From: Pseudomonadota bacterium
GTDB lineage: Bacteria > Verrucomicrobiota > Verrucomicrobiia > Limisphaerales > SXTU01
Reading direction: 5' to 3'
DNA length: 58,117 nucleotides
Assembly (NCBI GenBank): GCA_009922615.1
Contig: RFVF01000027.1
Location: forward strand, 1 to 58,117
A program made the position numbers and the translations under genes. Below, one piece after another: positions 13,714 to 54,281 of this stretch. Position 1 is the stretch's first letter, and the number at the start of each line of letters is the position of its first letter. The notes under the pieces are model-generated. The model searched no databases. It saw only the letters and a program-made list of their open reading frames with translations, and was not told where the DNA came from.

Positions 13714-13788
13714 ACACAGATGAAACACGGATAAAGGTGCGACTGCCTCGCCTCCAACCCGTGTTCAGTCCGTGTTCAATCCGTGGCT
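13714..13788 (+). repeat. Word-type inverted repeat, family A (ACACGGAT / ATCCGTGTTCA)
   Basis: The left part holds ACACAGATGAAACACGGAT. The right part holds the same words on the other strand (CCGTGTTCAGTCCGTGTTCAATCCGTGG in pieces). It starts at the first base after the rsuA stop. On the other strand it supplies the last codons of the CWC protein gene, so the two genes end inside one repeat. Confidence 0.6.
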
Positions 13789-13968
13789 CTGATGCTTCGC
13801 GATGCGGGCGCGCAGGCACGTGGGACACAAGCATTCGGCGGTGGGGTCGGTTGGCATCGGCACGCGCGGCAGCTCCATGCACCAACAAGTGTTCGCGGCA
13901 CAGTGCGCGAGGCAATCAAACGTCATGCCGCATTGCGGGCATTGCTTCTTCTCAGCGTGACGGCTCAT
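13765..13968 (-). CDS. Small cysteine-rich CWC-type zinc-binding protein
   Basis: A 67-residue protein with CPQCG near the N-terminus, then CLAHCAANTCWC, and CLCPTCL near the C-terminus. This matches the Cys_rich_CWC family, small proteins of unknown function named for their Cys-Trp-Cys motif. The ATG at 13968 begins MSRHAEKKQCP. A longer in-frame extension to 14196 runs through the TonB receptor gene and is rejected. The final residues (HGLNTD) are encoded by the repeat at 13714-13788, so the natural C-terminus may have been altered by repeat insertion. It is transcribed in the same direction as the TonB receptor upstream of it (78 bases apart). Confidence 0.78.
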   Translation of the reverse strand: MSRHAEKKQCPQCGMTFDCLAHCAANTCWCMELPRVPMPTDPTAECLCPTCLRARIAKHQSHGLNTD

Positions 13969-14045
13969 GGGATGAATTGTAGTCGTTGAGTCGGGGGAGG
14001 CGGAAAGACTCCGTTCCCCCAGGCCTCGGCGGCTACGCGGCCAAC

Positions 14046-16061
14046 TCAGAAAGTCGCGGTGAAGCCGAGCTGGAAGTTCAGGCCCGGTGCGGGGTTGTGG
14101 CGGAGTGCCGTGACGAACGTGTTGTAGGTCGGAAACTGCTCGTAGAGCCGGTCGAGCAGGTTGTTCACCGCTGCGTAGGTCGTTAGGTTCATCCACTGGT
14201 AGCTCAACTTCGTGTTCACCACGGTGTAGGTGTTTTGTGAGAGCGCGTTGGGCAGATCGTTGAAGCGCCGTTGGCCGGTGACATAGATCGTCTCAACGCG
14301 CCAGAGCCAGCCGGTCGCAGGACGAAGATTCACGCCGCCGTTCACCTGCCACTCGGGCACGAGCACCTGCCGCTGCCCGGCATACGCACCGCTCGTGAAG
14401 TGTGCGTCCGACCACGTCGCGCTGAAGTCCAGGTCCACCCAGTCGGCTGGCCGCGAGTTCAAGGCGAGCTCCACGCCTTGCCGGATGGCGTTGGCGTTGT
14501 TGTTCCCGAAGGTTGCCGGGTCGGAGAAAATGTCGTCCTGCACCCAGCTGTTGTAGTAGGCAAGGCTGCCGCCGAGGATCGCGTGGCGCTGGCTGCGCAG
14601 GCCGAACTCAACCGTGCGCGCGTCCACCGGGACGAGCGAGGGGTTGCTGGCGAAGCGCGGGTCGCCGCTCACGATGTCGTTGGCGCTGGGCAGGCGATAG
14701 GCTTGCGAGAGCGAGACCCAAGCCGAGGACTTTTCCGCGAACTCGTAGTGCAGGCTGACCTTGGGGCTCCACACGTTGTTCTGCTTGGTTCCGGTGAACG
14801 GCGGCGGCGGCGGGAACAGGTTGGGGATGTCGAGGTCCGAGCTGCGGTGATCGAAGCGCACGCCGGCCGCGAGCGACAGCTTGGGCAGCAGTTGCAGCGT
14901 GTCCTGCGCGAAAAGACTCAACGTGGTCGAGTCGAGCACCGTGGTCGTCGTGCCGAAGCCCTCGATGGTCTGCGCGAACTCCTGCCGCACCGCTTCGCCG
15001 CCGAAGGTCAGCGTGTTGGCGCGCTGTCCCGGCTCGGTCTTCCAATCCAATTGCACCGTGCTGCCGTAGCTGGGCTGCACCGTGGTGACCTTCGCGAAGC
15101 CGGTGCCGAAGCCGTTGTCCTTCGTCGCATACGCCTTCGCGTTCACGGTCCACGCTTCCTCGAAGGTCTTGTGGTAGTCCACCCAGCCGCGATGCAGCTC
15201 CTGCTCGAAGGTGAACTGCGTCGCGCCGCGCTGGCGCGGGTTCGCCGCGAACTGCGCGGGCGTGAGGATATCCGGGTTCTCGCTGTAGTCGTCGTGGAAC
15301 TGGTAGCCGAAGGTGAAGCGGCCTGCCGGAGTCTCGACCGACGGTTTGGCGAGCAGGTTCCAGCCGCGGTAATTCGCGCCGTCGCGCCAGCCAGCCCATT
15401 CGTTGCGGCTGCCGGTGAGGACGTAGCTGAACGTGTTCGTGCGACCGGTCAACGCGAAGTTGCCTTGGTAGAAACCGAGGTTGCCGCCGCTCGCGCCCAG
15501 GCTGCCGGCGAGCGGCTTGTTCGCCGCTTCCTTCGTGATGATGTTGATTACGCCTGCCGCCGCACCCTCGCCGTAAATCGTCGAGGCTCCGCCGCGGATG
15601 ATCTCCACGCGCTCGATGGCGGCGAGCGGCACGGAATTCCAGAGGAAGAAGCCGCCGCCTGCGTCGTTCGCGCGGACGCCGTCCACGAGGATCAGCGTGC
15701 CCGCCTTGTCACCAAAGCCGCGCAAACTGAACTGCGACTGCTGGCCCGCGAAGCCGACGGTGTCCAGCGACGTAAAACCCACCTGCTGCCGCAGCAGCTC
15801 CGGCAGCGTGAAGGCCGGTGATTGCGCGATGGCCTCACGCGTGATGACGGTGACGTTGGCCGGGACCTTCTCCACCGCGACCGTCTCCTCCGGCAGGCGC
15901 GTGGCCGTCACGACGAGCGGCGGAAGTTGAACTGGCGAGTTGGTTTGTTTCTCCTGCGCCACGGCGCTCGCCGAGAGGATAGCGAGCAGAGGATAGAGAC
16001 TGGAACGAACGGCGCTTTTCCTACTGATTATTGAACACTGTTTACTGATTAGCCTTTTCAT
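14046..16061 (-). CDS. TonB-dependent outer-membrane receptor, probable cobalamin/corrinoid transporter
   Basis: A ~671-residue protein with a signal sequence (hydrophobic LYPLLAILSASAVAQ). It is followed by a TonB-box-like segment (LPPLVVTATRLPE), a plug domain (~residues 50-175, with FSLRGFGD, LVDGVRAND and IERVEIIRGGASTIYGEGAAAGVINIIT) and a 22-strand-type barrel ending in phenylalanine (FTATF). Control by a cobalamin riboswitch upstream points to uptake of vitamin B12 or another corrinoid, BtuB-like in role. The ATG at 16061 is preferred over a GTG at 16073. Codons 2-13 are made of a repeat word, so the n-region of the signal peptide comes from repeat DNA. No btuCDF genes are in the window. 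Confidence 0.9.
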   Translation of the reverse strand: MKRLISKQCSIISRKSAVRSSLYPLLAILSASAVAQEKQTNSPVQLPPLVVTATRLPEETVAVEKVPANVTVITREAIAQSPAFTLPELLRQQVGFTSLDTVGFAGQQSQFSLRGFGDKAGTLILVDGVRANDAGGGFFLWNSVPLAAIERVEIIRGGASTIYGEGAAAGVINIITKEAANKPLAGSLGASGGNLGFYQGNFALTGRTNTFSYVLTGSRNEWAGWRDGANYRGWNLLAKPSVETPAGRFTFGYQFHDDYSENPDILTPAQFAANPRQRGATQFTFEQELHRGWVDYHKTFEEAWTVNAKAYATKDNGFGTGFAKVTTVQPSYGSTVQLDWKTEPGQRANTLTFGGEAVRQEFAQTIEGFGTTTTVLDSTTLSLFAQDTLQLLPKLSLAAGVRFDHRSSDLDIPNLFPPPPPFTGTKQNNVWSPKVSLHYEFAEKSSAWVSLSQAYRLPSANDIVSGDPRFASNPSLVPVDARTVEFGLRSQRHAILGGSLAYYNSWVQDDIFSDPATFGNNNANAIRQGVELALNSRPADWVDLDFSATWSDAHFTSGAYAGQRQVLVPEWQVNGGVNLRPATGWLWRVETIYVTGQRRFNDLPNALSQNTYTVVNTKLSYQWMNLTTYAAVNNLLDRLYEQFPTYNTFVTALRHNPAPGLNFQLGFTATF
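16024..16056 (-). repeat. Word-type repeat, family B (ATCAGTAAACAGTGTTCAATAATCAGT), single arm inside the TonB receptor start
   Basis: Read on the minus strand, a 7-base word (ATCAGTA/ATCAGTG-like) and GTTCA repeat in tandem. The same words form an inverted pair at 22776-22877. Here the repeat is translated as LISKQCSIIS in the signal-peptide n-region. Confidence 0.6.
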
Positions 16062-16143
16062 CTGATCTTTCACTGCGAGCCCCGCGCGGGTTCTTCAAGC
16101 GCGCGGAGCGGTTGGTGCTGGAGACCAGATGGGAGGTGAAAAT

Positions 16144-16181
16144 GAAAAAGCCTTCACCTCCGCAAATTGGAGAATGAAGGC
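16144..16181 (-). terminator. Rho-independent terminator between the cobalamin riboswitch and the receptor gene
   Basis: On the minus strand GCCTTCATTCTCC pairs with GGAGGTGAAGGC around a short AT-rich loop and is followed by TTTTTC. Its place between the aptamer and the coding start suggests it is the expression platform: ligand binding would favour termination. Confidence 0.8.
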
Positions 16182-16274
16182 ATCTCGGAATCCCGCCGAA
16201 AGACAGTTTGACGGGCTGGCCTCATCCTTCTCTTTGTCGGAGAAGCGGGCGCGCGTGAGCACGCCCTGACGAGC

Positions 16275-16415
16275 GCTGACAAGCCGGTATCCTGACTCCG
16301 GGCTTCAAACCTCGCTCCCGCCTTCCCGACCTTCAGTCAGTGGCATTGGGAGTCTGTAGCCCGTCACAGTGGCGCAACCGTCCCCGGATCTCACGGGGTT
16401 CCCTGCACTTGTAAG
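16275..16415 (-). ncRNA. Cobalamin riboswitch
   Basis: On the minus strand the element reads from GTGCAGGGAA, through GCGCCACTGTGACGGGCT (the conserved B12-box neighbourhood), to GAGTCAGGATACCGGC near 16283-16298. These are the hallmark conserved segments of the cobalamin aptamer, in the right order and spacing. It lies ~215 bases upstream of the TonB receptor with a terminator in between. Adenosylcobalamin is the usual ligand, but the exact corrinoid cannot be told. Confidence 0.93.
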
Positions 16416-16888
16416 CGGTGGATGGCGGAGCAACTCCGCCGTGGATCAAAGAACCGGATGAGGTTGTAGGCGAGTGCCGCGCGGGTGCCAAGGAAAAGCT
16501 TGCCCGGAGCGTTCAGTCCTCGGCGAAGAGGTATTCCCAATCAGTCTGCTCGAAGACGCGCTTCATGGTGCGTGGACAACCCAACATTTCCGTGTTTGCA
16601 ACGGCTGGGATTGCGTATAGGAAGAGCAGCCATCCACACGCTGTTGGTTTCAGAATCATTGGGAAAATTATGCCGGTTTCGACGGCCAGCTAAGGCCTGC
16701 TGTTCATGTAGCTGCAGTCGGCTGGGTCGCGGGGTTGTTGGGTGCAAACAGTGCGCAACGGGTCGGCGGTGACTGCCTCCGGCGAGTCTGAAAGCGGCAT
16801 TTTCAAGAACTTCAATGTCAGTATATTAACGGACTTTCGGCGAAGTCTAAGGAGGTAATTACGGTCCGGCTTTCTACGCCAGGACTGG
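16416..16888. other. Gene-poor stretch with a possible decayed coding remnant
   Basis: No convincing gene. A perfect 7-bp hairpin (GGCGGAG CAA CTCCGCC, 16424-16440) lies just upstream of the riboswitch without a T-run. On the minus strand, 16440-16570 reads in pieces like protein (MKRVFEQTDWEYLFAED then stop, and in another frame GTRAALAYNLIRFFDP), which looks like a decayed gene, but I do not recognise it. The rest (16580-16888) has no coding signal and is relatively AT-rich near 16815-16860. Confidence 0.4.
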
Positions 16889-18070: not shown

Positions 18071-18285
18071 AGTGAAATCAATGGGAGGTATAGTGTCAGG
18101 CGACCTAGTGGCAAACAAGCCGCAAACCCGCGACGGGCGCTCACTCTTTCATCAGGAAGTCGCAAGGTCACGTCAAACCGGACGAAGGCGCGACGTGAGA
18201 TTCTTGCCCTGTTGGGCCGTTGGCTCGATGCGGGAGGCGGCACTGTATCGCCCGGCTATGATAAACGCCGGGAGTTTCGTGGCGC

Positions 18286-21404: not shown

Positions 21405-21818
21405 TTAATCGGTGTTGGCGGGGACGACGCGGGCCTCGGTGTGCGAGACGTTCACCACGGTGATGCCCGCCGGAGTGTGGACGAGGATTTTTTTGTTCAA
21501 GCCGGCTGTGTCATGTGTGTCGGTGAGGTTGATGAAAACTTCGAGCTGCCGGGCGGTCAAGGCTTGAACCTCGGCGATGGGCCCGCGGACGGTGACATCA
21601 ATGTGGCTGGGTTCGAGGCGGAAGCTGCGGAAGTCGGTGGCCGCCTGGAGCAATGTGACCGGGACGTGCTCGATCTTCTGCGTCACGGTGCCGAGAACGG
21701 GCTGGTTGGACCGGAGATTGTTTTGCGCGCCGAAAACGGCGAACCAGATCATCGTCGCGAGCACGAACGAGAAGAGCTTGAGCCAGAAGTTCTGGAGGAT
21801 GGCGTCGCGGGCGGACAT
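21405..21818 (-). CDS. YbbR-domain protein (CdaR-like regulator of diadenylate cyclase)
   Basis: A 137-residue protein with one N-terminal membrane segment (FWLKLFSFVLATMIWFAVF) and one YbbR-like beta domain (VPVTLLQAATDFRSFRLEPSHIDVTVRGPI). Firmicute CdaR has several YbbR domains and modulates CdaA activity. This is a shorter, single-domain form. The ATG overlaps the cdaA stop (TAATG), which indicates coupling. Its place between cdaA and glmM repeats the conserved gene order, so a role in c-di-AMP control is likely though inferred. Confidence 0.85.
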   Translation of the reverse strand: MSARDAILQNFWLKLFSFVLATMIWFAVFGAQNNLRSNQPVLGTVTQKIEHVPVTLLQAATDFRSFRLEPSHIDVTVRGPIAEVQALTARQLEVFINLTDTHDTAGLNKKILVHTPAGITVVNVSHTEARVVPANTD

Positions 21819-22777
21819 TACTTGACCTCGGCTTTCGGTGGGAAGGACGCGGGGGCGGCGGGTTCGGGCGGATTGCTCGGCGGCGGGACTGGCGCGGAGG
21901 CGGTGGCTTTGGCAGAGCTGCTGCGCGAGATGTTTTGCGCGAGCCAGAGCCGCAAATGATCCACCCAGTTCCGCGCGCGCACGCGTTGCACGAAGATCGA
22001 GGTGAGGAAGGCGCGCAGCTCCTCGGCCGTCACGCCGCGCCGCAGCTCGCCGCGATAGGCGTAGGAAATCGCACCGCTCTCTTCGGAGACGATGACGATC
22101 ACGGCATCCGTCTCCTCGCTCAAGCCGATGGCCGCGCGGTGGCGCGTGCCGAGGGACTTGTGGAGATCGTGCCGGTGCGTGAGCGGGAAGATGCAGGCGG
22201 CGCGGAGGATGCGGCCGTTCTTCAAGATCACGCCGCCGTCATGGATGGCGTTGTTCGGGAAGAAAATCGTTTCCAGCATCTCGGGCGTCGCCTCGCAATC
22301 CACCACGATGCCGGACTCGACGGCTTCCGCGAGGTTGATGCTCTGCTCCATCGCCATCAGCGCGCCGATGCGCACGTCGGCGAGGCGTTCGACGGTTTCT
22401 ACGATGACCTCGACGTCTTCCCGTTGCTCGCGGGCGGAGAGGAGGAGCGATTGGTTGCCCAACTCGGCGAGCAGGCGGCGCAACTCCGGCTGGAAGATCA
22501 CGACGACGCCGATGGCACTGAAGCTGAAGAACCAGGTGAGCAGCCCGCGCAACACCGTGAGCTCGAGCACGGTGGTGATGAACGTGAGCGATACTAGCAA
22601 CACCACCAACCCGGTGACGACCGGCGCGCCGCGCGTGCCGCGGATGAAGTTCGCGGCGTAATAAATGCCCACCGCGAGGATGAGTATCTCCAGCGCGGGC
22701 CGCCAAATGTTGTTGAGTAGTTCGAGCGCCACTGTGTCAGCCGCACTTTGCCGTAAATCGGAAGCGGAGAGAAGCAA
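21818..22777 (-). CDS. cdaA: Diadenylate cyclase, CdaA type
   Basis: A membrane enzyme that makes c-di-AMP from two ATP. Three N-terminal hydrophobic segments (residues ~24-100) are followed by the DAC domain. In place of the common DGA motif it reads AIHDGGVIL. The RHR motif is present in GTRHRAAIG. The C-terminus has a Pro/Ala-rich tail. The start is uncertain: a TTG at 22777 is the first possible one and overlaps a repeat, and a GTG at 22732 directly precedes the first family-like residues (ALELLNNIWRPALEILIL). Neither has a clear ribosome binding site. It lies in an operon with ybbR and glmM. A diverged repeat separates it from folP. Confidence 0.92.
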   Translation of the reverse strand: MLLSASDLRQSAADTVALELLNNIWRPALEILILAVGIYYAANFIRGTRGAPVVTGLVVLLVSLTFITTVLELTVLRGLLTWFFSFSAIGVVVIFQPELRRLLAELGNQSLLLSAREQREDVEVIVETVERLADVRIGALMAMEQSINLAEAVESGIVVDCEATPEMLETIFFPNNAIHDGGVILKNGRILRAACIFPLTHRHDLHKSLGTRHRAAIGLSEETDAVIVIVSEESGAISYAYRGELRRGVTAEELRAFLTSIFVQRVRARNWVDHLRLWLAQNISRSSSAKATASAPVPPPSNPPEPAAPASFPPKAEVK

Positions 22778-22877
22778 GTAATCAGTGATCTGTGTTCAGA
22801 AATCAGCTCGCACTGTCGTGGTGTCTGAGCTGCGTGAAGGAACGGACTGCGGAACACGGATCACTGATTACTGATTC
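22776..22877 (-). repeat. Word-type inverted repeat, family B, between cdaA and folP
   Basis: The left arm GTAATCAGTGATCTGTGTTC matches the reverse complement of the right arm (GTAATCAGTGATCCGTGTTC) with one difference. About 50 bases of loop lie between. The right arm contributes the last codons and the stop of folP (ending NQ), and the left arm abuts the cdaA start. Confidence 0.75.
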
Positions 22878-23716
22878 GGTCGGTTCAAGTTGATCGCCGT
22901 GGCCACGCGCACCGCCGCCACGGTCTCGCGCACGTCGTGGACGCGGAGGATCTGCACCCCGTCGCGCACCGCGAGCGCCGCGCAGGCCAGCGCGCCGGGC
23001 AATCGTCCCGCCGGGCTGTCCGCGCCGGTGAGCTGGCCGAGAAATGATTTGCGGGAAACGCCCAGCACCAGCGGCCGATCATGGCGAGTGAAACGGGCGA
23101 GCGCCCCCAGCAGTTGCAAGTTGTGCTCTTGTGTCTTGCCGAAGCCGATGCCGGGATCGAGCACGACCTGTTCGAGTCGGACGCCCGACTGCTCCAGGCG
23201 CGCAAGCCGCTCGGCGAAGAACGCATCCACCTCGCGCACCACGTCCGTGTAGGCGGGGCTCTGTTGCATCGTCTGCGGCGTGCCTTGCATGTGCATCGCG
23301 ACGTAGCCGGCGCGGAACTCGGCCACCACGCGCCACATCGCGGCGTCCGGGCGATTGGCGGCGATGTCGTTGACGATGCTCGCGCCGGCCAGGAGCGCGG
23401 CGCGGGCCACCTCGGGCTTTTGCGTGTCCACGGAGAGCGGCGTCGGGACGAGCGCGGCGAGCTGGCGGATGACGGGGACCACGCGGCGAATTTCCTCGTC
23501 GGCCGCAACGGGCGTCGCGCCTGGCCGCGTAGATTCGCCGCCAACATCCAGCAAGTCAGCACCTTCGCGAATCATCTGCCCCGCGCGCTCGACGGCCGCC
23601 TCGACCGAAAAGAATTTTCCGCCATCCGAAAATGAATCCGGCGTGACGTTGAGCACACCCATCACCAGCATGGGACGGGGAAAGCGGAACTCGTGTCGGC
23701 CGGCGCGCCAAAGCAT
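22868..23716 (-). CDS. folP: Dihydropteroate synthase
   Basis: A ~282-residue TIM-barrel enzyme that joins p-aminobenzoate to the pterin pyrophosphate in folate synthesis. Motifs present are GVLNVTPDSFSDGG, LLDVGGESTRPGA, the Asp in PLSVDTQKPEVA, NDI, DPGIGFGKT and GVSRKSFLG. The ATG at 23716 (MLWRAGRHEF) is preferred to a GTG at 23731. The order folP-cdaA-ybbR-glmM is a common arrangement. The final residues come from repeat DNA. Confidence 0.95.
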   Translation of the reverse strand: MLWRAGRHEFRFPRPMLVMGVLNVTPDSFSDGGKFFSVEAAVERAGQMIREGADLLDVGGESTRPGATPVAADEEIRRVVPVIRQLAALVPTPLSVDTQKPEVARAALLAGASIVNDIAANRPDAAMWRVVAEFRAGYVAMHMQGTPQTMQQSPAYTDVVREVDAFFAERLARLEQSGVRLEQVVLDPGIGFGKTQEHNLQLLGALARFTRHDRPLVLGVSRKSFLGQLTGADSPAGRLPGALACAALAVRDGVQILRVHDVRETVAAVRVATAINLNRPNQ

Positions 23717-23868
23717 GACGCAGTGAAACACAGGCAGATGGTATCGTCAGTCGAGGAATCCCCTTAGCCGGAGTCTGAAATACCGGGTCAGTAATTCATT
23801 TTGCTGCCCGGTCCAGGTCGCTTTCTTGCTGCAAACCTTCGGAGTGGCGACGTAGGCTCGCACCACTT

Positions 23869-28136: not shown

Positions 28137-28739
28137 ATGATTTCATTCCTGCACGGCAAACTCGTCGATGCGCTACCCACGCAAGTCACGGTGGATGTCC
28201 AGGGCATCGGCTACGAGGTGCTGATCCCGTTGTCCTCTTTCGACAAGCTCCCTGCGCCCGGCGGTGACGTGCGGCTGCTCACGCATCTCGTCGTGCGCGA
28301 GGATGCGCACGTGCTCTACGGCTTCATGACGTCGCAAGAGCGCGAGCTGTTCCGCATGTTGATCAACACCGTCAGCGGAATCGGGCCCAAGATCGCGTTG
28401 AACGTGTTGAGCGGCATGAACCCCGTTGCCTTCCGGGGTGCCGTGGCCACCGGCGACGTGAAGGCGCTCTCCTCCATCTCCGGCGTGGGCCGCAAGACAG
28501 CGGAGCGCATCGTCGTGGAACTCAAGGACAAGATCGGTGCCGCCGGCGCGTGGGAGGCGAGCAGTGCCGCCCGCTCGCTCTCCACCCACGATCAGCGGAT
28601 CAATGACGCTGTGCTCGCACTGATGGCGCTGGGGTTCAAGCAACCCGAGGCGCACGAAACCGTCCGGGCCGCGCAGGCGATGCTTGGCGAACAGGCAACG
28701 GTGGAGGAACTCGTGCGGGCATCGTTGAAAAAGGGATAA
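28137..28739 (+). CDS. ruvA: Holliday junction branch migration protein RuvA
   Basis: A 200-residue protein, full length. The N-terminal OB fold is followed by the helix-hairpin-helix pair (LINTVSGIGPKIALNVLSG and SSISGVGRKTAERIVVELKDK). The flexible linker and C-terminal domain III (INDAVLALMALGF) bind RuvB. It works in the cytoplasm at recombination junctions. ruvB and ruvC are not in the window. The ATG at 28137 begins MISFLHGKL, the normal RuvA N-terminus. Confidence 0.96.
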   Translation: MISFLHGKLVDALPTQVTVDVQGIGYEVLIPLSSFDKLPAPGGDVRLLTHLVVREDAHVLYGFMTSQERELFRMLINTVSGIGPKIALNVLSGMNPVAFRGAVATGDVKALSSISGVGRKTAERIVVELKDKIGAAGAWEASSAARSLSTHDQRINDAVLALMALGFKQPEAHETVRAAQAMLGEQATVEELVRASLKKG

Positions 28740-28750: not shown

Positions 28751-28845
28751 AAAAAACGTTCAACGTTCAACGCTCGACGCTCAACGGCCATCCAGTGGGC
28801 CTGAGTGCAAAACATTTTTTGGACCTTGGACCTTGGACTGTTAAC
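28751..28845 (+). repeat. Word-type repeat cluster, family C (AACGTTCAACGTTCAACGCTC; TTGGACCTTGGACCTTGGACT)
   Basis: Two unlike word arrays face each other across a ~33-base spacer: AACGTTCAACGTTCAACGCTCG at the ruvA side and TTGGACCTTGGACCTTGGACTG at the acyltransferase side. They fill the whole gap between the two genes. Confidence 0.6.
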
Positions 28846-28850: not shown

Positions 28851-29546
28851 ATGTCCAAACCTCGCCCCCTCACTTCCGGCCCCGTCATTCCGCATCAGGC
28901 TAAGTGGCACGGCCGGCTGGCCGCGCGCCTGATCTGGTTCCTAGCCAGCGCGCTGGCGGCGACGCTGCGGTGGCGCTGGCGCGATGAAACAAACCTGTTC
29001 GAGAACGGTGGCAAGGAGCCCGTCATCTTCTGCCTGTGGCACAACCGGCTGGCGCTCTCGCTCATTCTCTTCCGCCGCTACGTGCAGTCCCGCCAGCCGC
29101 AGCGCAAACTCGCCGCGCTCGTCAGCGCCAGCCGCGATGGCGGGATGCTCGCGCGCGTGCTGGAGCTGTTCGATGTGGAGCCCGTGCGCGGTTCGTCAAG
29201 TCGGCGTGGTTCACAGGCGTTGCGCGAACTGGTCTCGGCCGGCGGGCGCGGGCGCGATCTGGCGATCACGCCCGATGGGCCGCGCGGGCCATGTTACGTG
29301 GTGCAGGAGGGCATCGTTTCGCTCGCGCAGCTCACCGGCATGGCGATCGTCCCCGCGTCGTTCCATCTGAGCTGGAAATGGCGGCTCAAGAGCTGGGACC
29401 GTTTCCAAGTGCCGCTGCCCTTTGCGCGTTGTGAAGTGCAGCTCGGCCCGCCGGTGCGGGTTCCCCGGGAAGCGGGCGCGGAGGAACGGGAGCAATGGCG
29501 GTTGGAACTCGAAGCGCGAATGAAGGCGATCACGCAGGACGAGTGA
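28851..29546 (+). CDS. DUF374-type lysophospholipid acyltransferase family protein
   Basis: A 231-residue protein of the LPLAT superfamily. An N-terminal membrane-associated helix (LIWFLASALAATL) is followed by WHNRLAL (the catalytic H-x4-D analogue region), SASRDGGMLARVL, GSSSRRGSQALREL and the conserved ITPDGPRGP. DUF374 proteins are thought to acylate lipid A or related glycolipids in the inner membrane, but the substrate is not proven. The ATG at 28851 lies 5 bases after a repeat cluster. It may be co-transcribed with ruvA. Confidence 0.88.
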   Translation: MSKPRPLTSGPVIPHQAKWHGRLAARLIWFLASALAATLRWRWRDETNLFENGGKEPVIFCLWHNRLALSLILFRRYVQSRQPQRKLAALVSASRDGGMLARVLELFDVEPVRGSSSRRGSQALRELVSAGGRGRDLAITPDGPRGPCYVVQEGIVSLAQLTGMAIVPASFHLSWKWRLKSWDRFQVPLPFARCEVQLGPPVRVPREAGAEEREQWRLELEARMKAITQDE

Positions 29547-34198: not shown

Positions 34199-34289
34199 GG
34201 CGAAATCCGTTGGTTCCGGCGGCGCGCGGAGCCGGGTCGCGCCTTTACTTCACCCGGTGGCGGCCTATTCTCGGGCTGTTGAATCCGGA

Positions 34290-37200: not shown

Positions 37201-37295
37201 CGGTGAACGGCAAACCATTCTCCGCCCAATGCGATGCGATGGGCGTGCTCAAATTATCACTGCCCGCCGAGGCGAAGGTGGAGATCAAATTATGA
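34290..37295 (+). CDS. pelA: PelA-like dual-function polysaccharide hydrolase/deacetylase
   Basis: A 1001-residue periplasmic protein with a signal peptide (VRLFVGVILACWLGFSSLGLRA). Residues ~30-265 are a GH114 (endo-alpha-1,4-polygalactosaminidase-like) barrel with FTGFFLDTADSLELL and PIILNRGFPLL. A Pro-rich linker (~285-340) is followed by a Rossmann-like domain (~340-450). A NodB-like deacetylase domain carries the metal motif SHIDGDG (His568, Asp residues) and HAYTH (644-648). A C-terminal beta domain completes the protein. This order matches Pseudomonas PelA, which deacetylates and trims the Pel exopolysaccharide. It is followed by PelB-like export genes. The stop sits at the first base of a repeat. 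The ATG at 34290 is set by the signal peptide. Confidence 0.85.
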   Translation: MILLRQPVRLFVGVILACWLGFSSLGLRAATFCINYSATPEVAALRDFDFSILSPEARVDVAALQRSGHRSYAYLSVVEVAKDAPYRAELATRHVALLGKNEVWLGDLADVSQPAWADFVVNTLAVRAAQKGFTGFFLDTADSLELLEKQFPQRGTAFRDGMVTLIKLLKAKFPQHPIILNRGFPLLARLTGVVDGVLAESLFRKFDFKEKRYVAVDAAGSQWLLNILRTISQAGLPVYVVDYVDAQETTLAEDAARRISGVGFTPFISTVELDGRLLAPRPRSRNTPAPAVAPKPVPQLPPALPSVSSGTPVARAPLEPGGNSSPLQMGEIPRFVLTLFGNREADVEDLVRWPIDSGVAQVAQMPLEWLGYEVDYLNVNERELPAAFDSRYAAVILDRYLDLPRAKEAMVADWLIAQKERGCKIIFFGAMPFNDSAVLERMLKAFGCGGTGRSVKGVTGLRTRSVTSALNFEAKLNLTPVGFRELRAPEGSEVLFSLTAGEGQQFDPLFIAPWGGMMLEPYALFRRPDLDELWLVDPFHFFQRALGGVVMPVPDTTTRDGARIFFSHIDGDGFRHSSSVEPGLRSGEVIVERIIKKYPFPFTVSFIEAEVRGLVAGQKPGDAELLTRQAREVLALSKVEAASHAYTHPFYWNASDRTVKEYARANLQLAPPHDRPGAALDLRREIVGSVDYIERELCPPGKRVKIFLWSGNCRPWPEALRLVRELGIENMNGGETAISRKRPSVTRVSARAVPWESELQITSANENENIYRERWAVSGDTESPFFGGFLLAQDGFERMEQPRRLKPVNIYFHFYSGDNLASLNALTRLFDWAMRQELHAITAADYARLVRDARSARVIRESDVRWTFVTGGAVRTFRLPKSALVPDLAASRGVTGWRVTGDVIYVHTDGSPRVELALSSSPAAHLRLDQSTAEIQFTRLATREAAFTVRDIRPCQVTLAGSVAHSTAQVTVNGKPFSAQCDAMGVLKLSLPAEAKVEIKL

Positions 37296-37396
37296 GGACA
37301 GCAGGACAGCAGGAATTTGAGCTAGCCAACGTCGGTAGGTGCGGGCGAAAAACACAATCAGGCCGGTTCGTACTGCCTGCCTGCCTTCCTGATAAC
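37293..37396 (+). repeat. Word-type inverted repeat, family G (GGACAGCAGGACAGCAGGAA / CTGCCTGCCTTCCTG)
   Basis: The left arm TGAGGACAGCAGGACAGCAG and the right arm CTGCCTGCCTGCCTTCCTGA are imperfect reverse complements around a ~55-base loop. The element starts on the pelA stop codon and ends 20 bases before the next gene. Confidence 0.55.
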
Positions 37397-48270: not shown

Positions 48271-49485
48271 ATGCCGTCATTCAGTTACGTGGCCCGTGAG
48301 GCCGCCTCCGGTCGCGAGGTGCGCAACGTCCTTGAGGCCAACACCGAGCAGGAGGCGATCGCCCAGCTCCTCGGCCGCAACATGCTCGTGGTGTCGATCC
48401 AGGAAGCGAGCGGCAAAAAGGGCCGTGCCGCGAGCGGCTCGGTGCCCATGCAGGATCTGGTCATGTTCACCCGCCAGCTCGCGACGATGATCGATGCCGG
48501 CCTGGCCATCGTGCAATCCCTCCAAGCCCTCGCCGAGCAGACCAATAACAAGATCATGCGCGACGTGATCCGCGACATCTGCGCGCGGGTGGAGAGCGGT
48601 GACAATTTCTCGGCGGCGCTCATGAAGCACCCCAAGACCTTCGACCGCCTCTTCTACTGCATGGTGGATGCGGGCGAAAAAGGCGGCCTCCTCTCGGAAA
48701 TTCTCTCCCGGCTCGCGACCTACCTCGAAAACACTGTCCGTCTGCGCAAGAAGGTGAAGTCCGCGATGATGTATCCCACCGTCGTTACCCTCGTCGCCAT
48801 CACCATCACCAGCTTCCTGCTCGTCAAGGTGGTGCCCACGTTTGGTGAAATTTTCTCCGGCTTCGGCGCCAAACTCCCCACGCCCACGCAGTATCTCATC
48901 GACTTCTCCGAGTGGATGAAGAAGTGGTGGTGGGTGATGTTGCTGGTTGCCGGTGCTGGCGTTTACAGCTGGTTGGCTTTCATCAAGACGAAGGTTGGCG
49001 AGGAGTTTTGGGATAGGAACCGCATCCGGCTCCCGGTCTTCGGCCACATCGCGCATAAAATCTGCCTCGCCCGTTTCGCCCGCACGCTCGCCTCGCTGAT
49101 CCGCTCCGGCGTGCCCATCCTCGAAGTGCTCAACATCACCGCCAACGTCGTCGGCAATGTTGTCATGGAAAAGGCCATCCGCTCCGCTTCGGCGGACATC
49201 GAAAAGGGCGACGGCATCGCTGCGGCGCTCGGCCGGCACCCCGTTTTCCCCGTGATGATTATCCGCATGCTCACCGCCGGCGAACAAACCGGCAAGATCG
49301 ACGCCATGCTCGAACGCGTCGCTGATTTCCTCGACGATGAGATCGAAACCATCCTCGGCGGCCTCACCTCGTTGATCGAGCCGCTGCTCATCGTCTTCCT
49401 CGGCGTCGTCGTTGGCGGCATCGTGATTTGCATGTTCCTGCCCATCTTCAAGATGAGCGAGATCATCAACCCGCCGGGGCGCTGA
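48271..49485 (+). CDS. Type II secretion / type IV pilus inner-membrane platform protein (PilC/GspF)
   Basis: A 404-residue protein with two T2SF domains (~70-195 and ~270-395), beginning LVMFTRQLATMIDAGLAIVQSL and RFARTLASLIRSGVPILEVLN. Three membrane segments are visible (LVAITITSFLLVKVVPTFG, KWWWVMLLVAGAGVYSW and LIVFLGVVVGGIVICMFLPIF). It forms the inner-membrane platform of pilus or secretion machines. No pilin, ATPase or secretin gene is in the window, so the machine cannot be specified. Confidence 0.92.
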   Translation: MPSFSYVAREAASGREVRNVLEANTEQEAIAQLLGRNMLVVSIQEASGKKGRAASGSVPMQDLVMFTRQLATMIDAGLAIVQSLQALAEQTNNKIMRDVIRDICARVESGDNFSAALMKHPKTFDRLFYCMVDAGEKGGLLSEILSRLATYLENTVRLRKKVKSAMMYPTVVTLVAITITSFLLVKVVPTFGEIFSGFGAKLPTPTQYLIDFSEWMKKWWWVMLLVAGAGVYSWLAFIKTKVGEEFWDRNRIRLPVFGHIAHKICLARFARTLASLIRSGVPILEVLNITANVVGNVVMEKAIRSASADIEKGDGIAAALGRHPVFPVMIIRMLTAGEQTGKIDAMLERVADFLDDEIETILGGLTSLIEPLLIVFLGVVVGGIVICMFLPIFKMSEIINPPGR

Positions 49486-49490: not shown

Positions 49491-49577
49491 AAGGCAAAAG
49501 CAACAAAGTAAAAGGCAAACCGGTTGGCCGCCGCCGGTCCGTCCTTTTGCCTTTTTACTTTTACCTTTTGCCTTTCT
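49491..49577 (+). repeat. Word-type inverted repeat, family D (AAGGCAAAAG / CTTTTGCCTT)
   Basis: The left arm AAGGCAAAAGCAACAAAGTA and the right arm TTTTACTTTTACCTTTTGCC (partial) are near reverse complements around a GC-rich loop. It fills the space between the GspF stop and the priA start and could form a strong hairpin in the transcript. Confidence 0.65.
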
Positions 49578-49586: not shown

Positions 49587-51992
49587 ATGTTTGCCCGCGT
49601 CACCCTTGAGATCGCGCTCCGCAAGGAGTTCGACTACGCCATCCCGCCGGAGCTGGCCGGTCAGGTGGAAGTCGGCACGCGCGTCAAGGTGCCCTTCGGC
49701 CACCGGCAGGTCATGGGCTGCGTCACCGCGCTCGTTGAACACTCCACGCACACGAACCTCCGGCACCTCACTGCCATCGTCGGCAAGCAATCCCTCGTCA
49801 CCGCCCGCGTGCTCCAGCTCGCGCGCTGGATCGCCGACTACTACTGCTGCGCGCCGGAGATCGCCTTGAAGAGCGTGCTGCCCGAAGTCGTGCGACGCGA
49901 ACAAGACGGCTGGCGTGAACGCCTTTTCGTCCGCCTGCTGCCCGCCACCGGCGCGATGCCCAAGCTCACCAAGCGCCAGCAGGAAATCCTCAACCTTCTC
50001 GAAGAGCGCCGCGAGCTGCCGCTACAGGAACTTCTCGAACTCGCCGAGACCACCGCCGAGACCGTCCGCCGCCTCGAAGACAAGCACCTCGTCCTCATCA
50101 CCAACCAAGTCTCCGAGCGCGACCCCTATGCAAAGGACGTCATCAGCCGCACCGAGTCGCTCACGATGAACGCGGAGCAGGCGAAAGCGCTGGCGGTGAT
50201 TTGCAAACGGATGGACGAGGGGGGCGGAGCCGGTGGGGAAGCGGGAAAGCGAGAAAGTGAGCCTGCGTCCGGGCACCCACTCCCACTTTCCCACTCTCCC
50301 GCTTTCTCACCTGCTACTTTCCTCCTCCACGGGGTCACTGGCTCCGGCAAGACTGAGGTTTACCTCCAAGCCATCGCGCACGCGTTGGGGCAGGGGAAGG
50401 GTGCCATCGTCCTCGTGCCGGAAATCGCGCTCACGCCGCAGACCGTCGAGCGCTTCAAGGCCCGCTTCAGCCACGGACCGTTGCAGACGCAAGTTGCCGT
50501 GTTGCACTCGCACTTGAGCGCGGGCGAGCGGCACGACGAGTGGCACAAGATTCGCCAAGGCCGCGCGCGCATCGTCATCGGCGCGCGCTCGGCCATCTTC
50601 GCGCCCGTCGAACCGCTCGGGCTCATCATCGTGGACGAGGAGCACGAGCATTCCTACAAACAGGAGGAAGCCCCGCGCTACCACGCCCGCGATGTCGCCG
50701 TCGTGCGCGGCCAGATGGACAATGCCGTCGTAGTGCTCGGCTCGGCCACTCCTTCGATGGAGAGCTTCTACAACGTCCAGCGCGGCAAATACGCCCTGCT
50801 CGAACTCCCCACGCGCGCTGACGACAAGAAGATGCCCATCGTCCGCGTCGTGGACATGCGGCAGGCTGCGCGGAAGGAAAAAGGCACGCCCATCTTCAGC
50901 GAGGAACTTAAGGAGGCCATCACCAAGCGCCTAGAGCGCAAGGAGCAGACGATGCTCTTCCTCAACCGGCGCGGTTACTCGAGCTCGCTTCAGTGCCCGC
51001 AGTGCGGCTTCGTGGCCGAGTGCCCGAATTGCAGCGTCGCCCTCACCTATCATCGGCGCGCGCAGAAGATTTGCTGCCACATCTGCGGCCACGAAGCCCC
51101 CGCGCCCACGGCCTGCCCCGAGCCGAAGTGCCGCAGCGCGGCCATTCGCTACGCCGGCTTGGGCACCGAACGCGTTGAGGAGACGCTCACGAAACTCTTC
51201 CCGCACGCCCGCATTGCGCGGATGGACAGCGACCTGATGAAGCGCAAGGAGGACTACCGCCGCGTGCTGGGCGACTTCAAGGCCGGCAAGACCGACATCC
51301 TCGTCGGCACGCAGATGATCGCCAAGGGCCTGCACTTCGAGAACGTCACGCTCGTCGGCGTCATCCACGCGGACCTCAGCCTGCATATCCCGGACTTCCG
51401 CGCGGGCGAGCGGACCTTCCAGCTCCTCACCCAAGTCTCCGGTCGCGCCGGCCGCGGCGACGTGGAGGGTGAGGTTTACGTGCAGAGCTTCACGCCATTT
51501 CATCCGGCCATCCAATACGCCCGCCGCCACGACTTCACTGGCTTCTACGAACAGGAGATCGAATTCCGCGAACAACTCAACTACCCGCCCGCCTCGCGTC
51601 TCGCGATGCTGACGTTCAAGGGCCGCAACGAGGAGAAGGTGAAGCTGATGGCCGAGTATGTGACGCGCGAGCTCGAGAGTTTAGCAGGTGGAAAAGCGGG
51701 AAAGCGGGAAAGTGAGACCGTGAAGACGGACGCGCTGGAGCTTCTCCCACTTTCTCACTCTCCCACTTTCTCACCTGCCCCTGCTCCGACCGCGCCGTTG
51801 CGCGATCTTATCCTCGCCGGTCCCGCTCCCGCGCCGCTGCTGCGCGCCGAGACCTTCTACCGTTACCAACTCATGCTGCGCACCAAGCAGATGCCGCGCG
51901 TGAGCAAGGTGCTGGCGACGCTGCTCGAACAAATCGAGTTGCCCGACGATGTCACGCTGACCGTGGACATTGACCCGGTGAGTTTGATGTGA
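49587..51992 (+). CDS. priA: Primosomal protein N', replication-restart helicase PriA, with two in-frame repeat insertions
   Basis: A 801-residue protein. Order: 3'-DNA-binding domain (MFARVTLEIALRKEFDYA), winged helix (~130-200), helicase lobe 1 with Walker A GVTGSGKTE and DEEH, a zinc module with eight cysteines (CPQCGFVAECPNC, CCHICG, CPEPKC), lobe 2 (VGTQMIAKGLHF, QVSGRAGRG) and a C-terminal domain. Two stretches are not PriA: AGKRESE to LPLSHSPAFSPA just before Walker A, and AGKRESE to LPLSHSPTFSPA in the C-terminal domain. Both are translated palindromic repeats (50232-50314, 51684-51778). Because these lie between domains or in loops, the protein may still work. The ATG at 49587 is set by PriA similarity. 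Confidence 0.94.
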   Translation: MFARVTLEIALRKEFDYAIPPELAGQVEVGTRVKVPFGHRQVMGCVTALVEHSTHTNLRHLTAIVGKQSLVTARVLQLARWIADYYCCAPEIALKSVLPEVVRREQDGWRERLFVRLLPATGAMPKLTKRQQEILNLLEERRELPLQELLELAETTAETVRRLEDKHLVLITNQVSERDPYAKDVISRTESLTMNAEQAKALAVICKRMDEGGGAGGEAGKRESEPASGHPLPLSHSPAFSPATFLLHGVTGSGKTEVYLQAIAHALGQGKGAIVLVPEIALTPQTVERFKARFSHGPLQTQVAVLHSHLSAGERHDEWHKIRQGRARIVIGARSAIFAPVEPLGLIIVDEEHEHSYKQEEAPRYHARDVAVVRGQMDNAVVVLGSATPSMESFYNVQRGKYALLELPTRADDKKMPIVRVVDMRQAARKEKGTPIFSEELKEAITKRLERKEQTMLFLNRRGYSSSLQCPQCGFVAECPNCSVALTYHRRAQKICCHICGHEAPAPTACPEPKCRSAAIRYAGLGTERVEETLTKLFPHARIARMDSDLMKRKEDYRRVLGDFKAGKTDILVGTQMIAKGLHFENVTLVGVIHADLSLHIPDFRAGERTFQLLTQVSGRAGRGDVEGEVYVQSFTPFHPAIQYARRHDFTGFYEQEIEFREQLNYPPASRLAMLTFKGRNEEKVKLMAEYVTRELESLAGGKAGKRESETVKTDALELLPLSHSPTFSPAPAPTAPLRDLILAGPAPAPLLRAETFYRYQLMLRTKQMPRVSKVLATLLEQIELPDDVTLTVDIDPVSLM
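50232..50314 (+). repeat. Word-type inverted repeat, family E, copy 1 inside priA
   Basis: The left arm GGTGGGGAAGCGGGAAAGCG continues with AGAAAGTGAG. The right arm CCACTTTCCCACTCTCCCGC continues to TTTCTCACC. The two arms are imperfect reverse complements around a ~20-base loop, 83 bases in total. It is in frame and adds about 28 residues before the Walker A motif. Confidence 0.8.
51684..51778 (+). repeat. Word-type inverted repeat, family E, copy 2 inside priA
   Basis: The left arm GCAGGTGGAAAAGCGGGAAA and the right arm ending ACTTTCTCACCTGC are imperfect reverse complements. It is 95 bases long and in frame. It shares its words and its translated motifs (AGKRESE, LPLSHSP) with copy 1. 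Confidence 0.82.
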
Positions 51993-52034
51993 AGGCGGCT
52001 TTCGCTTTCTGGTCCTCGTGGTAGGGTCTTTGCG

Positions 52035-54281
52035 ATGAGTGACCACAGCGACTCACCCGCGCCAGACGCCACGGAGTTCTCCGTCAAGGGCCTGAACTGC
52101 CAGAGCTGCGTGCGCAAGGCCACCGCCGCACTCGAAGCCGTGCCAGGCCTCGCCAGCGTCGTGGTCAGTCTCGAAGAGGAGCGCGCCATCGTGCGCTGGC
52201 GGCCGGACGTGAAGCCTTCCGCTTATACCATCATCCGCGCCCTGCAAACCGCCGGCTACGAGGCCGAGCCAATTCGCAATTCGCAACTCACAACTCGCAA
52301 TTCTCCCTGGTCTCCGCTCACCGGCTGGCAGTTCAACGTCGTCTTCGGCGGCGCGGTTACGTTGCTGCTGATGCTCGGCGAGTGGGCGTTTGGCCTCGGC
52401 ATGGAAACGTGGTTTCAGTGGGCGGCCTTCGCGCTCGCGCTGCCGGTGCAGGCCGTGTGCGGCGCGCGGTTTTACGTCGGCGCGTGGCGGCAGTTGCGCG
52501 TGGGCAGCTCAAACATGGACACGCTTGTGTCGCTCGGCTCCACGACGGCCTTTGGTTTCAGCGCGTGGGCGCTGTTCACCGGCTGGCACGGGCATCTGTG
52601 GTTCATGGAGGCGGCGGCGATCATCACGCTCATCAGCGTCGGCCACTGGCTCGAAGCCCGCATGAGCGCGCACGCCGCGAGTTCCTTGAAAGCCCTGCTG
52701 AACCTCGCCCCGGCCACCGCCCACCGACTCGATACCAGCGGTGCGGAGGACGAAGTTCCCGTCGCGCAACTTCGCGTTGACGACCGCATCGCCCTGCGTC
52801 CTGGCGACCGCGTGCCGGTGGATGCCGAGATCCTCGAAGGCCAGTCCGCCGTGGACGAGGCGATGCTCACGGGCGAATCGCTGCCGGTCGAAAAATCGGC
52901 GGGCGCAAAACTCTATGGCGGAACGGTGAACCAAAACGGGCGGCTCATCGCTCGTGTCACAGCCACCGGCGATACCACGGCCCTCGCGCAAATCATCGCT
53001 GTCGTGCAGCGCGCGCAGGCCAGCCGCGCGAACATCCAGCAGCTCGGCGACCGCGTCAGCGCGGTGTTCGTGCCCAGCGTTGTGCTCATCGCGCTCGGCA
53101 CGGGATTGTGGTGGTGGCTGGCTTACGAGAGCGCCTTGCGCGTCGCGACGACATTGTTGCCATGGCTCAAGCCGGAGCATTTCCCCGCGTCACCGCTGGC
53201 CGCCGCGTTCATCCATGCGGCGGGCGTGCTCATCGTAGCCTGCCCGTGCGCGATGGGTCTCGCCACACCCGCTGCGATCATGGCTGGTGTGAACGCTGCG
53301 GCACGGCGGGGAATTTTGATTCGGGACGGCGCGGCCTTGGAGAAAAGCGGTCGCATCACCGCCGTGCTTTTCGACAAGACCGGGACGTTGACCGAGGGAA
53401 AACTGACGGTGGCGGCAGTGCAGGAAGTGAACGTCAGCGCGATGTCCATCAGGGAACTCGCGGCCGCACTCGCGGAACCGTCGAACCATCCCTTGAGCCG
53501 CGCCGTGGCGATGGCCGACAGTCACAGGCCGTCGCTACAGGATTGGCGCGAAGTTCGTGGCGCCGGCGTGGCGGCGACAAGCGAAGGGGCGATTTGTCGC
53601 CTCGGCTCGTTGCGTTGGCTGAACGAGGTGGGCGTCAATGGCGTTGGGCATCCGTTTGCAACCGAGTGGACTTCACAGGGCGCGACCGTGCTCGGGCTCG
53701 CACGCGGCGCGGAGTTGCTCGCGCTGTTTGCGTTGCGCGACCAGTTGAAGCCCCACGTCGCCGACGTGCTTGCGGAGTTGCAGCGGGATGGCAAGGCCGT
53801 CTTCCTGATCACCGGCGACCATGCGCAGACCGCCGCCGCCATCGCCGCACTGGCCGGTGTGCCGAAGGAAAACGTCTTCGCCGAAGTCCGTCCGGAGCAA
53901 AAGGCTGACATCGTGAAACAGTTGCAGGCGCGCGGCCAACGAGTGGCCTTCGTCGGCGATGGTATCAACGACGCCCCTGCGCTCACGCAGGCGGATCTCG
54001 GCATCGCTGTCACGCGCGCGAGCGACGTGGCGCGCGAGGCGGCGGATCTCATCCTGCTCCAGTCGGACATTCAGGCCATACCCGAGGCCCTCGGCTTGGC
54101 GCAGGCGACGCTGCGCACGATCAAGCAAAACCTGTTCTGGGCCTTCTTCTACAACGCCGCTGCCGTGCCGCTGGCGGCGCTCGGGCTGCTAAGTCCCGTG
54201 GTGTGCGCGGCGGCGATGGGGTTATCCGACGTGCTGGTGATCTGCAACGCGCTGCGGCTGCGCGCGTGGCGGCAGCGGTAG
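52035..54281 (+). CDS. copA: Heavy-metal P1B-type ATPase, probable copper exporter
   Basis: A 748-residue membrane pump. An N-terminal HMA domain has the metal-binding LNCQSCV (CxxC) motif. Eight membrane segments follow, with the CPC metal site in ACPCAMGLATPA, phosphorylation loop DKTGTLTEG (Asp in DKTG), SNHPLS (HP motif), and GDGINDAPAL. CPC plus HMA CxxC indicates Cu(I) transport. Residues ~78-90 (PIRNSQLTTRNSP) come from a repeat (52271-52303) between the HMA domain and the first membrane helix, a place that tolerates insertions. The ATG at 52035 starts right after priA (42 bases). Confidence 0.93.
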   Translation: MSDHSDSPAPDATEFSVKGLNCQSCVRKATAALEAVPGLASVVVSLEEERAIVRWRPDVKPSAYTIIRALQTAGYEAEPIRNSQLTTRNSPWSPLTGWQFNVVFGGAVTLLLMLGEWAFGLGMETWFQWAAFALALPVQAVCGARFYVGAWRQLRVGSSNMDTLVSLGSTTAFGFSAWALFTGWHGHLWFMEAAAIITLISVGHWLEARMSAHAASSLKALLNLAPATAHRLDTSGAEDEVPVAQLRVDDRIALRPGDRVPVDAEILEGQSAVDEAMLTGESLPVEKSAGAKLYGGTVNQNGRLIARVTATGDTTALAQIIAVVQRAQASRANIQQLGDRVSAVFVPSVVLIALGTGLWWWLAYESALRVATTLLPWLKPEHFPASPLAAAFIHAAGVLIVACPCAMGLATPAAIMAGVNAAARRGILIRDGAALEKSGRITAVLFDKTGTLTEGKLTVAAVQEVNVSAMSIRELAAALAEPSNHPLSRAVAMADSHRPSLQDWREVRGAGVAATSEGAICRLGSLRWLNEVGVNGVGHPFATEWTSQGATVLGLARGAELLALFALRDQLKPHVADVLAELQRDGKAVFLITGDHAQTAAAIAALAGVPKENVFAEVRPEQKADIVKQLQARGQRVAFVGDGINDAPALTQADLGIAVTRASDVAREAADLILLQSDIQAIPEALGLAQATLRTIKQNLFWAFFYNAAAVPLAALGLLSPVVCAAAMGLSDVLVICNALRLRAWRQR
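52271..52303 (+). repeat. Word-type repeat, family F (AATTCGCAATTCGCAACTCAC), single arm inside the copper ATPase
   Basis: AATTCGCAATTCGCAACTCA followed by CAACTCGCAATTC. The 8-9-base word repeats in tandem, in frame, and is translated as NSQLTTRNS. Confidence 0.6.

Follow-up and report, generated by a model that had tools for sequence, protein, structure and literature searches.

What are the short repeated words that fill gaps between genes, and parts of genes, in a 58,117-nt contig from Limisphaerales, and how do they come to stand there? We analysed the whole contig, RFVF01000027.1 of assembly GCA_009922615.1 (filed as Pseudomonadota bacterium; GTDB lineage Verrucomicrobiota, Verrucomicrobiia, Limisphaerales, SXTU01), from position 1 to 58,117, and call this stretch the window. 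The original prediction had marked in it at least seven families of words repeated with small changes (A to G), and had proposed that they might be MITE-like (resembling miniature inverted-repeat transposable elements) or hairpins that affect mRNA ends. Direct reading confirmed word repeats at every place named, and all nine stretches (A, B1, B2, C, D, E1, E2, F and G) are degenerate word arrays. The results showed that these arrays are real and not a product of chance, and that species retain the slots but often carry a different word in them.

We compared orthologous positions in the genome of the window (G000) and the ten other genomes of its genus (G001 to G010), wherever both flanks were present. 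All are draft assemblies in 150-950 contigs; the genus drafts are 71-95% complete, and G000 is about 93% complete. In total, 239 arrays were queried with 250-nt flanks against relatives, and pairs were kept only when the flank match ended within 60 nt of the slot and the gap lay between -20 and 300. Words were called the same at a distance d <= 1, near at d = 2 and different at d >= 3. Each row stands for one query array and one target genome, with identical rows merged; the rows are not independent, and some of the relatives' DNA was chosen because G000 carries arrays there. The 482 comparisons comprised 133 with the same word, 34 with a near word, 130 with a different word and 185 without a detected array, many of the last containing degenerate words below the threshold. 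The slots formed 35 clusters, some of which may merge paralogues; 23 clusters had arrays in at least two genomes, and different words were seen in 13 of these 23. Length was equal within 3 nt in 47 of the 130 different-word rows and 66 of the 185 no-array rows. At a flank identity of 94% or more, no row had a different word (7 same, 2 with d = 2, 2 without an array; n = 11), whereas at 90-94% there were 22 different, 13 same, 1 with d = 2 and 7 without an array (n = 43). Word change begins between these two classes, and we infer that at such divergence point mutation alone cannot alter all units of an array alike.

The stretches, and the two genes that carry three of them, are as follows.

13711-13790: family A, 11-mer words ACGGATKRAAC in two inverted arms, spacer of about 27 nt, outer end CCGTGGCT
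16024-16056: family B1, ACTGNNN heptamers, a single short hairpin near the 5' end of the open reading frame (ORF) 14046-16073 (minus strand)
22776-22877: family B2, ACTGATT arms that form an outer stem of some 20 base pairs, one of them G-U
28751-28845: family C, left arm AACGTTC/AACGCTC and right arm TTGGACC, different words that are weakly complementary
37293-37396: family G, 8-mers, AGGACAGC in 2.5 copies and CTGCCTGCCTTCCTG
49491-49577: family D, AAAAGGC/AAAAGTA arms, spacer of about 23 nt
49587-51992, plus strand: priA-like gene with PriA_3primeBD, DEAD, Zn_ribbon_PriA, Helicase_C and PriA_C, carrying slots E1 and E2
50231-50314: family E1, AAAGYGRG 8-mer arms with ends GGTG..CACCTGC, in frame inside priA
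51684-51779: family E2, AAAGCGGG arms with ends GCAGGTG..CACCTGC, in frame inside priA
52035-54281, plus strand: gene with HMA and E1-E2 ATPase, carrying slot F
52266-52308, plus strand: family F slot, 43 nt, AATTCGC/AACTCGC heptamers in one arm, in frame

In the metal P-type ATPase ORF, slot F directly follows the HMA match. It was 43 nt long in all six of the eleven genus genomes compared, those for which both flanks were found, and it held four different words: AATTCGC in G000, TTCAACC in G004, ATTCCGC in G002 and AATCGGC in G005, with a decayed form in G006 and no word in G001. A loop in a gene that we take to be methionine-synthase-like held GAATTCA in G000, CAGCGGT-type words in G001, G002, G007 and G010, CAATCGG in G005 and G009, and a degenerate array in G004; G006 had no array. 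Slot E1 covers priA residues of about 215-243, just before the DEAD match (245-392) and within the ResIII match (193-390). It carried AAAGYGRG arms in several genus members and GAGAGTGT-like arms in G008 and G010; in other families it held AACTCAA (G027), AACCATC (G024), GGAACGC (G019) and GGGGAAG (G012), and several further relatives had no clear words there. Slot E2 sits between Helicase_C and PriA_C, and its spacer encodes an LELLP-like core that, judged by eye, also occurs in relatives without words.

Further slots of the window also held words in relatives. Slot D, between the stop of ORF 48271-49485 (plus) and the priA ATG at 49587, held CAACTCT-type words in G002, G007 and G008. Slot C, between ORFs 28137-28739 (plus) and 28851-29546 (plus), carried CGTGTTC and ACGGAAC arms in G008 and G009, which pair. 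The B1 slot held other ACTG/CTGAC-type word arrays. The B2 slot, between ORFs 21818-22777 (minus) and 22868-23731 (minus) and overlapping the end of the latter, was two-armed in G002, G004 and G005.

Several further observations concern individual slots. The E2 segment of about 100 nt (51684-51779) was missing from several other families of the order, and stood at equal length without clear words in G001, G003 and G004. Strong palindromes with a GTAGC start stood in place of words at slot A in G005, and in G002 and G010 at the slot of 8990-9162 in L067, a G000 locus on contig C277; they resemble GTAG-type repetitive extragenic palindromes (REPs). Different repeat classes seem to occupy the same slots. 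At 9415-9578 of L067 in G000, A-type 11-mer arms enclosed a second inverted pair of CAGGAAC/AGGAAGGC words, and G007, G009 and G010 had the right outer arm only at this position. In L074, a G000 locus on contig C310, three consecutive large ORFs for paralogous-looking membrane proteins each carried a two-armed array in a similar loop (3.7, 6.0 and 8.4 kb), with a fourth array at 11.0 kb. The word in all four was AAAAGGC/AAAAAGG-type in G000, TTACGCA-type in G005 and G003, and CAGTGTT in G002; the slots of these tandem genes may be matched to paralogues in some relatives.

Length differences between the compared slots were counted as well. Among the 130 different-word rows, 18 length differences were zero; of the 112 others, 71 were multiples of 3 and 4 were multiples of 7, with about 37 and 16 expected. 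In the same-word rows, 79 of 133 differences were zero, and the remaining 54 included 30 multiples of 3 and 10 of 7. When each distinct difference was counted once per slot, the different words gave 22 multiples of 3 and 3 of 7 among 39 non-zero values. Length differences thus preserve the frame more often than they move in steps of 7 nt; word exchange therefore looks frame-filtered and is not a simple gain or loss of units. In the G002 orthologue of L067 at about 14.3 kb, the array lacked one heptamer relative to G007 and G010. This loss, which may be real or an assembly error, would put a gene that is otherwise conserved out of frame.

We then considered the two arms. Inverted partners at score 14 and no more than 160 bp away were found for 46 of the 134 heptamer arrays with full flanks in five genomes, compared with 5.2 in a random-word control; direct partners numbered 7 and 3.7, respectively. 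The other 88 arrays had no inverted partner at this threshold. Of the 46 spacers listed, in which one pair may count from both arms, 31 were 14-37 nt long, and at least five neighbouring unit columns were invariant in 101 of the 129 arrays with three or more units. In the window, inverted arms pair well in A, B2, D, E1 and E2 and weakly in G and C, and F is one-armed. The RNA fold z values agreed, at -6.2 for B2, -5.5 for D, -4.8 for E2, -4.5 for E1, -3.6 for B1 and -2.9 for A, with weak values for G (-1.8) and C (-1.6) and no hairpin for F (+0.4). The original statement that most families have a second arm was too strong, given these 46 of 134 arrays; moreover, the arms of C are two different words and F has one arm. 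The co-variation of arms was assessed in 13 two-armed slots, each with at least three genomes; these sites were picked in G000, hence G000 was omitted and 72 species-slot cells entered. Own-arm pairing scored 1031, compared with 720 when right halves were swapped between species (standard deviation 36.5, maximum 851; 0 of 5000 swaps reached the observed value). The results indicated that the arms stay complementary through word changes in most of the tested slots, family C being an exception to the matching of arms.

The arrays are abundant, and their unit length is specific. At score 11, the G000 sample (690 kb, or 690,288 unmasked bases, of a 5.5 Mb genome) contained 46 period-7 arrays, 4 of period 8 and none of periods 10 or 13; period 6 gave 16 and period 12 gave 10, while periods 14 and 21 follow as multiples. 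The period-7 density was 67 per Mb in G000 and 55-122 per Mb in four other genus genomes. A third-order Markov copy gave 5 period-7 rows against 50 real ones at the same threshold, with about four rows on each side stemming from four fully masked contigs. Among the 12-mers in greatest excess in the G000 sample, most were of word type, such as GCAATCGGCAAT, with 10 occurrences against 0.1 expected. In the five-genome sample of 1.89 Mb, 58 canonical words account for 138 arrays, and counting once per 20-kb piece, there were 168 identical-word pairs among 123 entries compared with a letter-shuffled mean of 10.3 (maximum 23). These results show a recurrent vocabulary that is far from random and common to the genus. 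A genome-private vocabulary was not supported, since same-word pairs within a genome numbered 42 against 36.0 (p 0.16), and 130 against 112 at d <= 1 (p 0.05). Half of the words (29 of 58, covering 58% of the 138 arrays) were free of stops on both strands compared with 42% of shuffled words, which is only a mild bias.

The words of the window recur individually as well. Sites with at most two mismatches in the G000 sample and in the five genomes, respectively, numbered 7 and 14 for A, 2 and 11 for B, 1 and 7 for C1, 5 and 13 for C2, 5 and 9 for D, 2 and 10 for E, 6 and 7 for F, and 1 and 1 for G. The control consisted of six shuffled words per family in five samples, with maxima of 0 (A), 2 (B), 11 (C1), 4 (C2), 3 (D), 1 (E), 1 (F) and 1 (G). 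Six words (A, B, C2, D, E and F) topped all six of their shuffles; C1 and G were not above them, and G was found at one site only in the sampled DNA. Two of the six C1 shuffles scored 9 and 11, perhaps because they resemble real words. The original prediction would have been abandoned if each family occurred only once, and this holds for none but G; the expected recurrence was thus borne out for six words, while C1 recurred at a level not above its controls. Units other than 7 nt occur in A (11) and in E and G (8). Tandem Repeats Finder reported arrays in A, C, D, E1, E2, F and G, the array scan detected B2, and B1 was detected by neither. The words are contiguous, with no regular spacers, which agrees with the earlier view that they are not a CRISPR.

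Their placement relative to genes was only partly as predicted. According to a simple longest-ORF caller, 29 of the 46 G000 arrays lay inside ORFs of at least 450 nt (random 30-mers, 4233 of 4944), and the remaining 17 lay within 34 nt of an ORF edge. A position at gene borders therefore describes the 17, but not the 29, and E1, E2 and F sit in frame within genes. The words do sometimes overlap stop codons, as had been proposed: the first letters of A overlap the TAA stop of ORF 12634-13713 (plus), and the TGA (37293-37295) that ends ORF 34257-37295 (plus) shares one letter with the left arm of G. Because 29 of the 46 arrays lie inside long ORFs, a hairpin acting at mRNA ends cannot be their general role; several arrays do pair as hairpins, and such a role is possible for some intergenic copies. 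Terminator-like sites were not in excess over shuffled sequence (14 vs 14.9 and 16 vs 15.1 in two scans), and the sole array to overlap one was the D spacer (49519-49539), in a scan blind to loops of more than 8 nt. None of the arrays matched Rfam. The sole match in the window at the gathering threshold was a cobalamin riboswitch (RF00174, 77.3 bits) at 16265-16427 (minus), off every array.

We favour, at a probability of roughly 0.4, the reading that the arrays are short repeat tracts with a fast turnover, spread over the genome in permissive slots, namely gene junctions and loops or linkers inside proteins, and that host replication and repair turns them over. This reading is supported by the persistence of slots with changed words, the co-varying arms, the frame-keeping length differences, the shared vocabulary and the excess of inverted partners. 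Host enzymes of replication and repair would rewrite the arrays in several steps. A heptamer tract may pair out of register, so that polymerase slippage homogenises its units. A few shared letters may let a single strand of the tract anneal at a second tract or at a bare loop in another part of the genome, where copying it in as a short patch (non-homologous patch replacement) would seed a new word. One arm may fold back on the other, and template switching (quasipalindrome correction) would then rewrite the second arm. Selection would discard copies that break a frame or a fold, leaving in-frame linkers and gene-junction fillers, and a 7-nt unit without stops, being open in all three frames, would survive more easily in genes. 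The hairpin would be mostly a by-product, with a role at mRNA ends possible in some intergenic copies and not required. Patch copying is the weakest of these steps. Short-patch double illegitimate recombination is a described process; the literature search returned no paper that uses this term. According to PMC4060949, the correction of quasipalindromes by template switching is a general process.

A dedicated enzyme is not favoured, because the reverse transcriptase RVT_1 was found in one of the eleven genus genomes (G005) and G000 had no match to a Y1 transposase, although in drafts such absences are soft. These enzyme results, together with the lack of a terminator excess, lead us to favour host replication and repair.

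Several results weigh against this reading. Words copied within genomes should be genome-private, and the excess was slight. The closest pair, G008 and G009 (about 96%), showed mostly small changes, with 7 same, 2 with d = 2 and 1 without an array in ten rows. Co-variation was slight at B2 (18.7 for own arms and 17.7 for exchanged ones) and at 7.7 kb (6.3 vs 5.1) and 11.0 kb (8.3 vs 7.5) of L074, and at 11.2 kb of L067 the left word varied among G000, G010, G009 and G004 while the right arm stayed CTCTCAACT-like. The reading gives no reason for a unit of 7 instead of 5 or 8. Finally, no copying event was seen directly, and no donor was matched to a recipient. A further claim is that, in bacteria of this group, an active non-homologous short-patch rewriting repeatedly writes shared words of 7 letters (in some cases 8 or 11) into fixed slots, often both arms at once, so that loops of PriA and the metal ATPase are recoded between sister species with the frame and often the length kept. 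We regard this stronger claim as possible, yet on the doubtful side.

One rival reading invokes small mobile elements, non-autonomous and MITE- or REP-like, whose terminal repeats are rich in words. These would insert repeatedly at one set of permissive sites and later disappear, leaving different families in different species. Families A and E do share their outer ends (..CCGTGGCT and ..CACCTGC) at many unlinked sites, and to this extent the MITE-like proposal of the original prediction stood. The element nested in the spacer of another at L067 9415-9578, the two-armed and one-armed states at 9.4 kb of that locus, and the GTAG-type-REP-like palindromes in some of the same slots in relatives would fit as well; GTAG REPs have been reported in Verrucomicrobia (PMC3733652), and 8 of the 11 genus genomes have Y1_Tnp matches. 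However, G000 itself, rich in arrays, has none. The spacers of unlinked A and E copies are unrelated, and in place of the conserved internal sequence of a MITE we found only common outer ends; 88 of the 134 heptamer arrays are unpaired at the threshold used, and no target-site duplication was noticed in the slots examined, for which no systematic search was made. Insertion or excision of a MITE would not exchange the word in a slot and leave its length as it was. We therefore consider mobile elements an unlikely explanation for the arrays as a whole.

An origin in place is about equally improbable in our judgement. Here the arrays would arise by heptamer-biased slippage and be kept for a hairpin function such as mRNA end protection, termination or pausing, without copying between sites. 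Because the words are not clearly genome-private and the vocabulary is common to the genus, a biased origin of this kind retains some likelihood for heptamers, and the stable hairpins with co-varying arms are what stem selection would give. All 17 arrays outside long ORFs also lie within 34 nt of an ORF edge. Against this, the complex 18-letter words of A and E stand at 14 and 10 sites, compared with 0 and 0-1 for shuffled words, and are hard to explain without copying. Length should change in sevens, and the observed differences do not. A hairpin function also accords poorly with the 88 arrays unpaired at the threshold used, with the 29 inside long ORFs and with terminator-like sites that are not above shuffles, although a scan limited to loops of 8 nt would overlook longer ones.

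It is very improbable that a reverse transcriptase or telomerase-like enzyme uses a short RNA template to write the words onto DNA ends, which would give both inverted arms in one event: the two-arm layout with a repeated short unit could be the product of such an enzyme and is the sole support for this reading, whereas RVT_1 was found in G005 alone and not in the array-rich G000. Chance, simple low complexity or assembly error can practically be dismissed. Repeats may misassemble in such fragmented drafts and one G002 array in a coding slot is a heptamer short, but period 7 exceeds other periods, shuffled controls fall far below, slots agree over separate assemblies, and similar arrays occur in records not titled metagenome assemblies, e.g., those of Niastella strains and the cyanobacterium ESFC-1.

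Neither the heptamer unit nor the inverted pair is new. The short tandemly repeated repetitive (STRR) heptanucleotides of Calothrix, said to have been described by Mazel in 1990, reportedly comprise several degenerate heptamer families in one genome, as is the case here; we know of no slot-wise word exchange between species for them. The palindromic elements of Rickettsia are likewise palindromic and in frame inside protein genes, and they are longer and conserved through their centre. REPs keep one tagged palindrome (GTAG or CGTC) and are tied to Y1 transposases (RAYTs), unlike the present arrays, whose arms are tandem words with unique centres. REPs and their doublets, REPINs, resemble the arrays as short dispersed palindromes that also occur in coding regions, with the GTAG type in Verrucomicrobia (PMC3733652). 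The GGGAATC heptamers of Xanthomonas and the GGGGA(C/T)T heptamers of Nostoc (Rehm et al. 2015, PMC4692102, where three Calothrix heptanucleotides are also mentioned) are alike in having a heptamer unit in few degenerate copies at many sites. In Xanthomonas, two sites faced each other as convergent, inverted copies in 70 (Xcc) and 75 (Xac) cases, and the heptamers were over-represented between genes and near gene edges (PMC4692102). The arrays studied here, in tandem 7-nt units with at least two degenerate copies at dispersed sites, can be classed as heptameric simple sequence repeat arrays. They differ in the size of the vocabulary (58 canonical words in 138 arrays of 1.89 Mb) and in the frequent exchange of the word in a slot. 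The same word was kept at a site between related species in 83% of cases in Xanthomonas (PMC4692102), compared with 133 same, 34 near and 130 different words in the 297 two-sided comparisons here.

The TAACTGA direct repeats of Beggiatoaceae, Cyanobacteria and Bacteroidetes (MacGregor 2015, PMC4679880) share the ACTG core of family B, are scattered over distant phyla and lie in part inside ORFs. They are direct, with one indirect case in the Guaymas genome, and stand mostly just upstream of start codons; differences between two close Cyanothece strains are mostly 7-nt increments, and related heptamers are rarely or never repeated (PMC4679880). Here, in contrast, there are many words, inverted arms and slots within genes. 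Short tandem repeats are not enriched in bacteria on average according to PMC12699852, whose main text contains neither "heptanucleotide" nor "heptamer". No description of heptamer-word exchange at slots was found in the literature searched, mostly short of full text, and within that literature a large vocabulary whose words change at fixed positions in core genes, the two arms changing along, appears to be new.

The process may extend widely, as records titled Planctomycetota, Chloroflexi, Acidobacteria and Niastella, and one of a cyanobacterium, contain arrays of this style. Three copies of CAATCGG occurred in at least 119 stretches of many phyla over all genomes, a count made with no control heptamer and so not showing this word to be special. 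Vocabulary overlap with other phyla was weak (9 of 66 arrays vs 3.5 shuffled, maximum 11); of the 80 CAATCGG loci among the matches listed, 15 that belong, or were presumed to belong, to the same phylum were omitted. The pattern GGCAAAAGGCAAAAGGCAAAAG was found in its own genome only (1 of 194) in a sample of the phylum that held no other genomes of the same order. Around priA, other orders of the class had 4 period-7 arrays in 94.5 kb, and two same-order sets, which share some genomes, had 10 in 102.6 kb and 0 in 30.5 kb, numbers that do not allow a conclusion.

Reports of heptamer repeats are scattered over several phyla, and the available parts of PMC4692102 and PMC4679880 give no mechanism for their spread. 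Fixed slots with exchanged words provide a comparative assay, in which each slot records the replacement of a short sequence. For annotators, odd repeated linker peptides may stem from DNA words rather than from protein function. If word exchange reflects real patch copying, parts of housekeeping proteins could be recoded in one step, and short-patch rewriting would, if true, be a new mode of sequence change that is neither point mutation, homologous conversion nor transposition.

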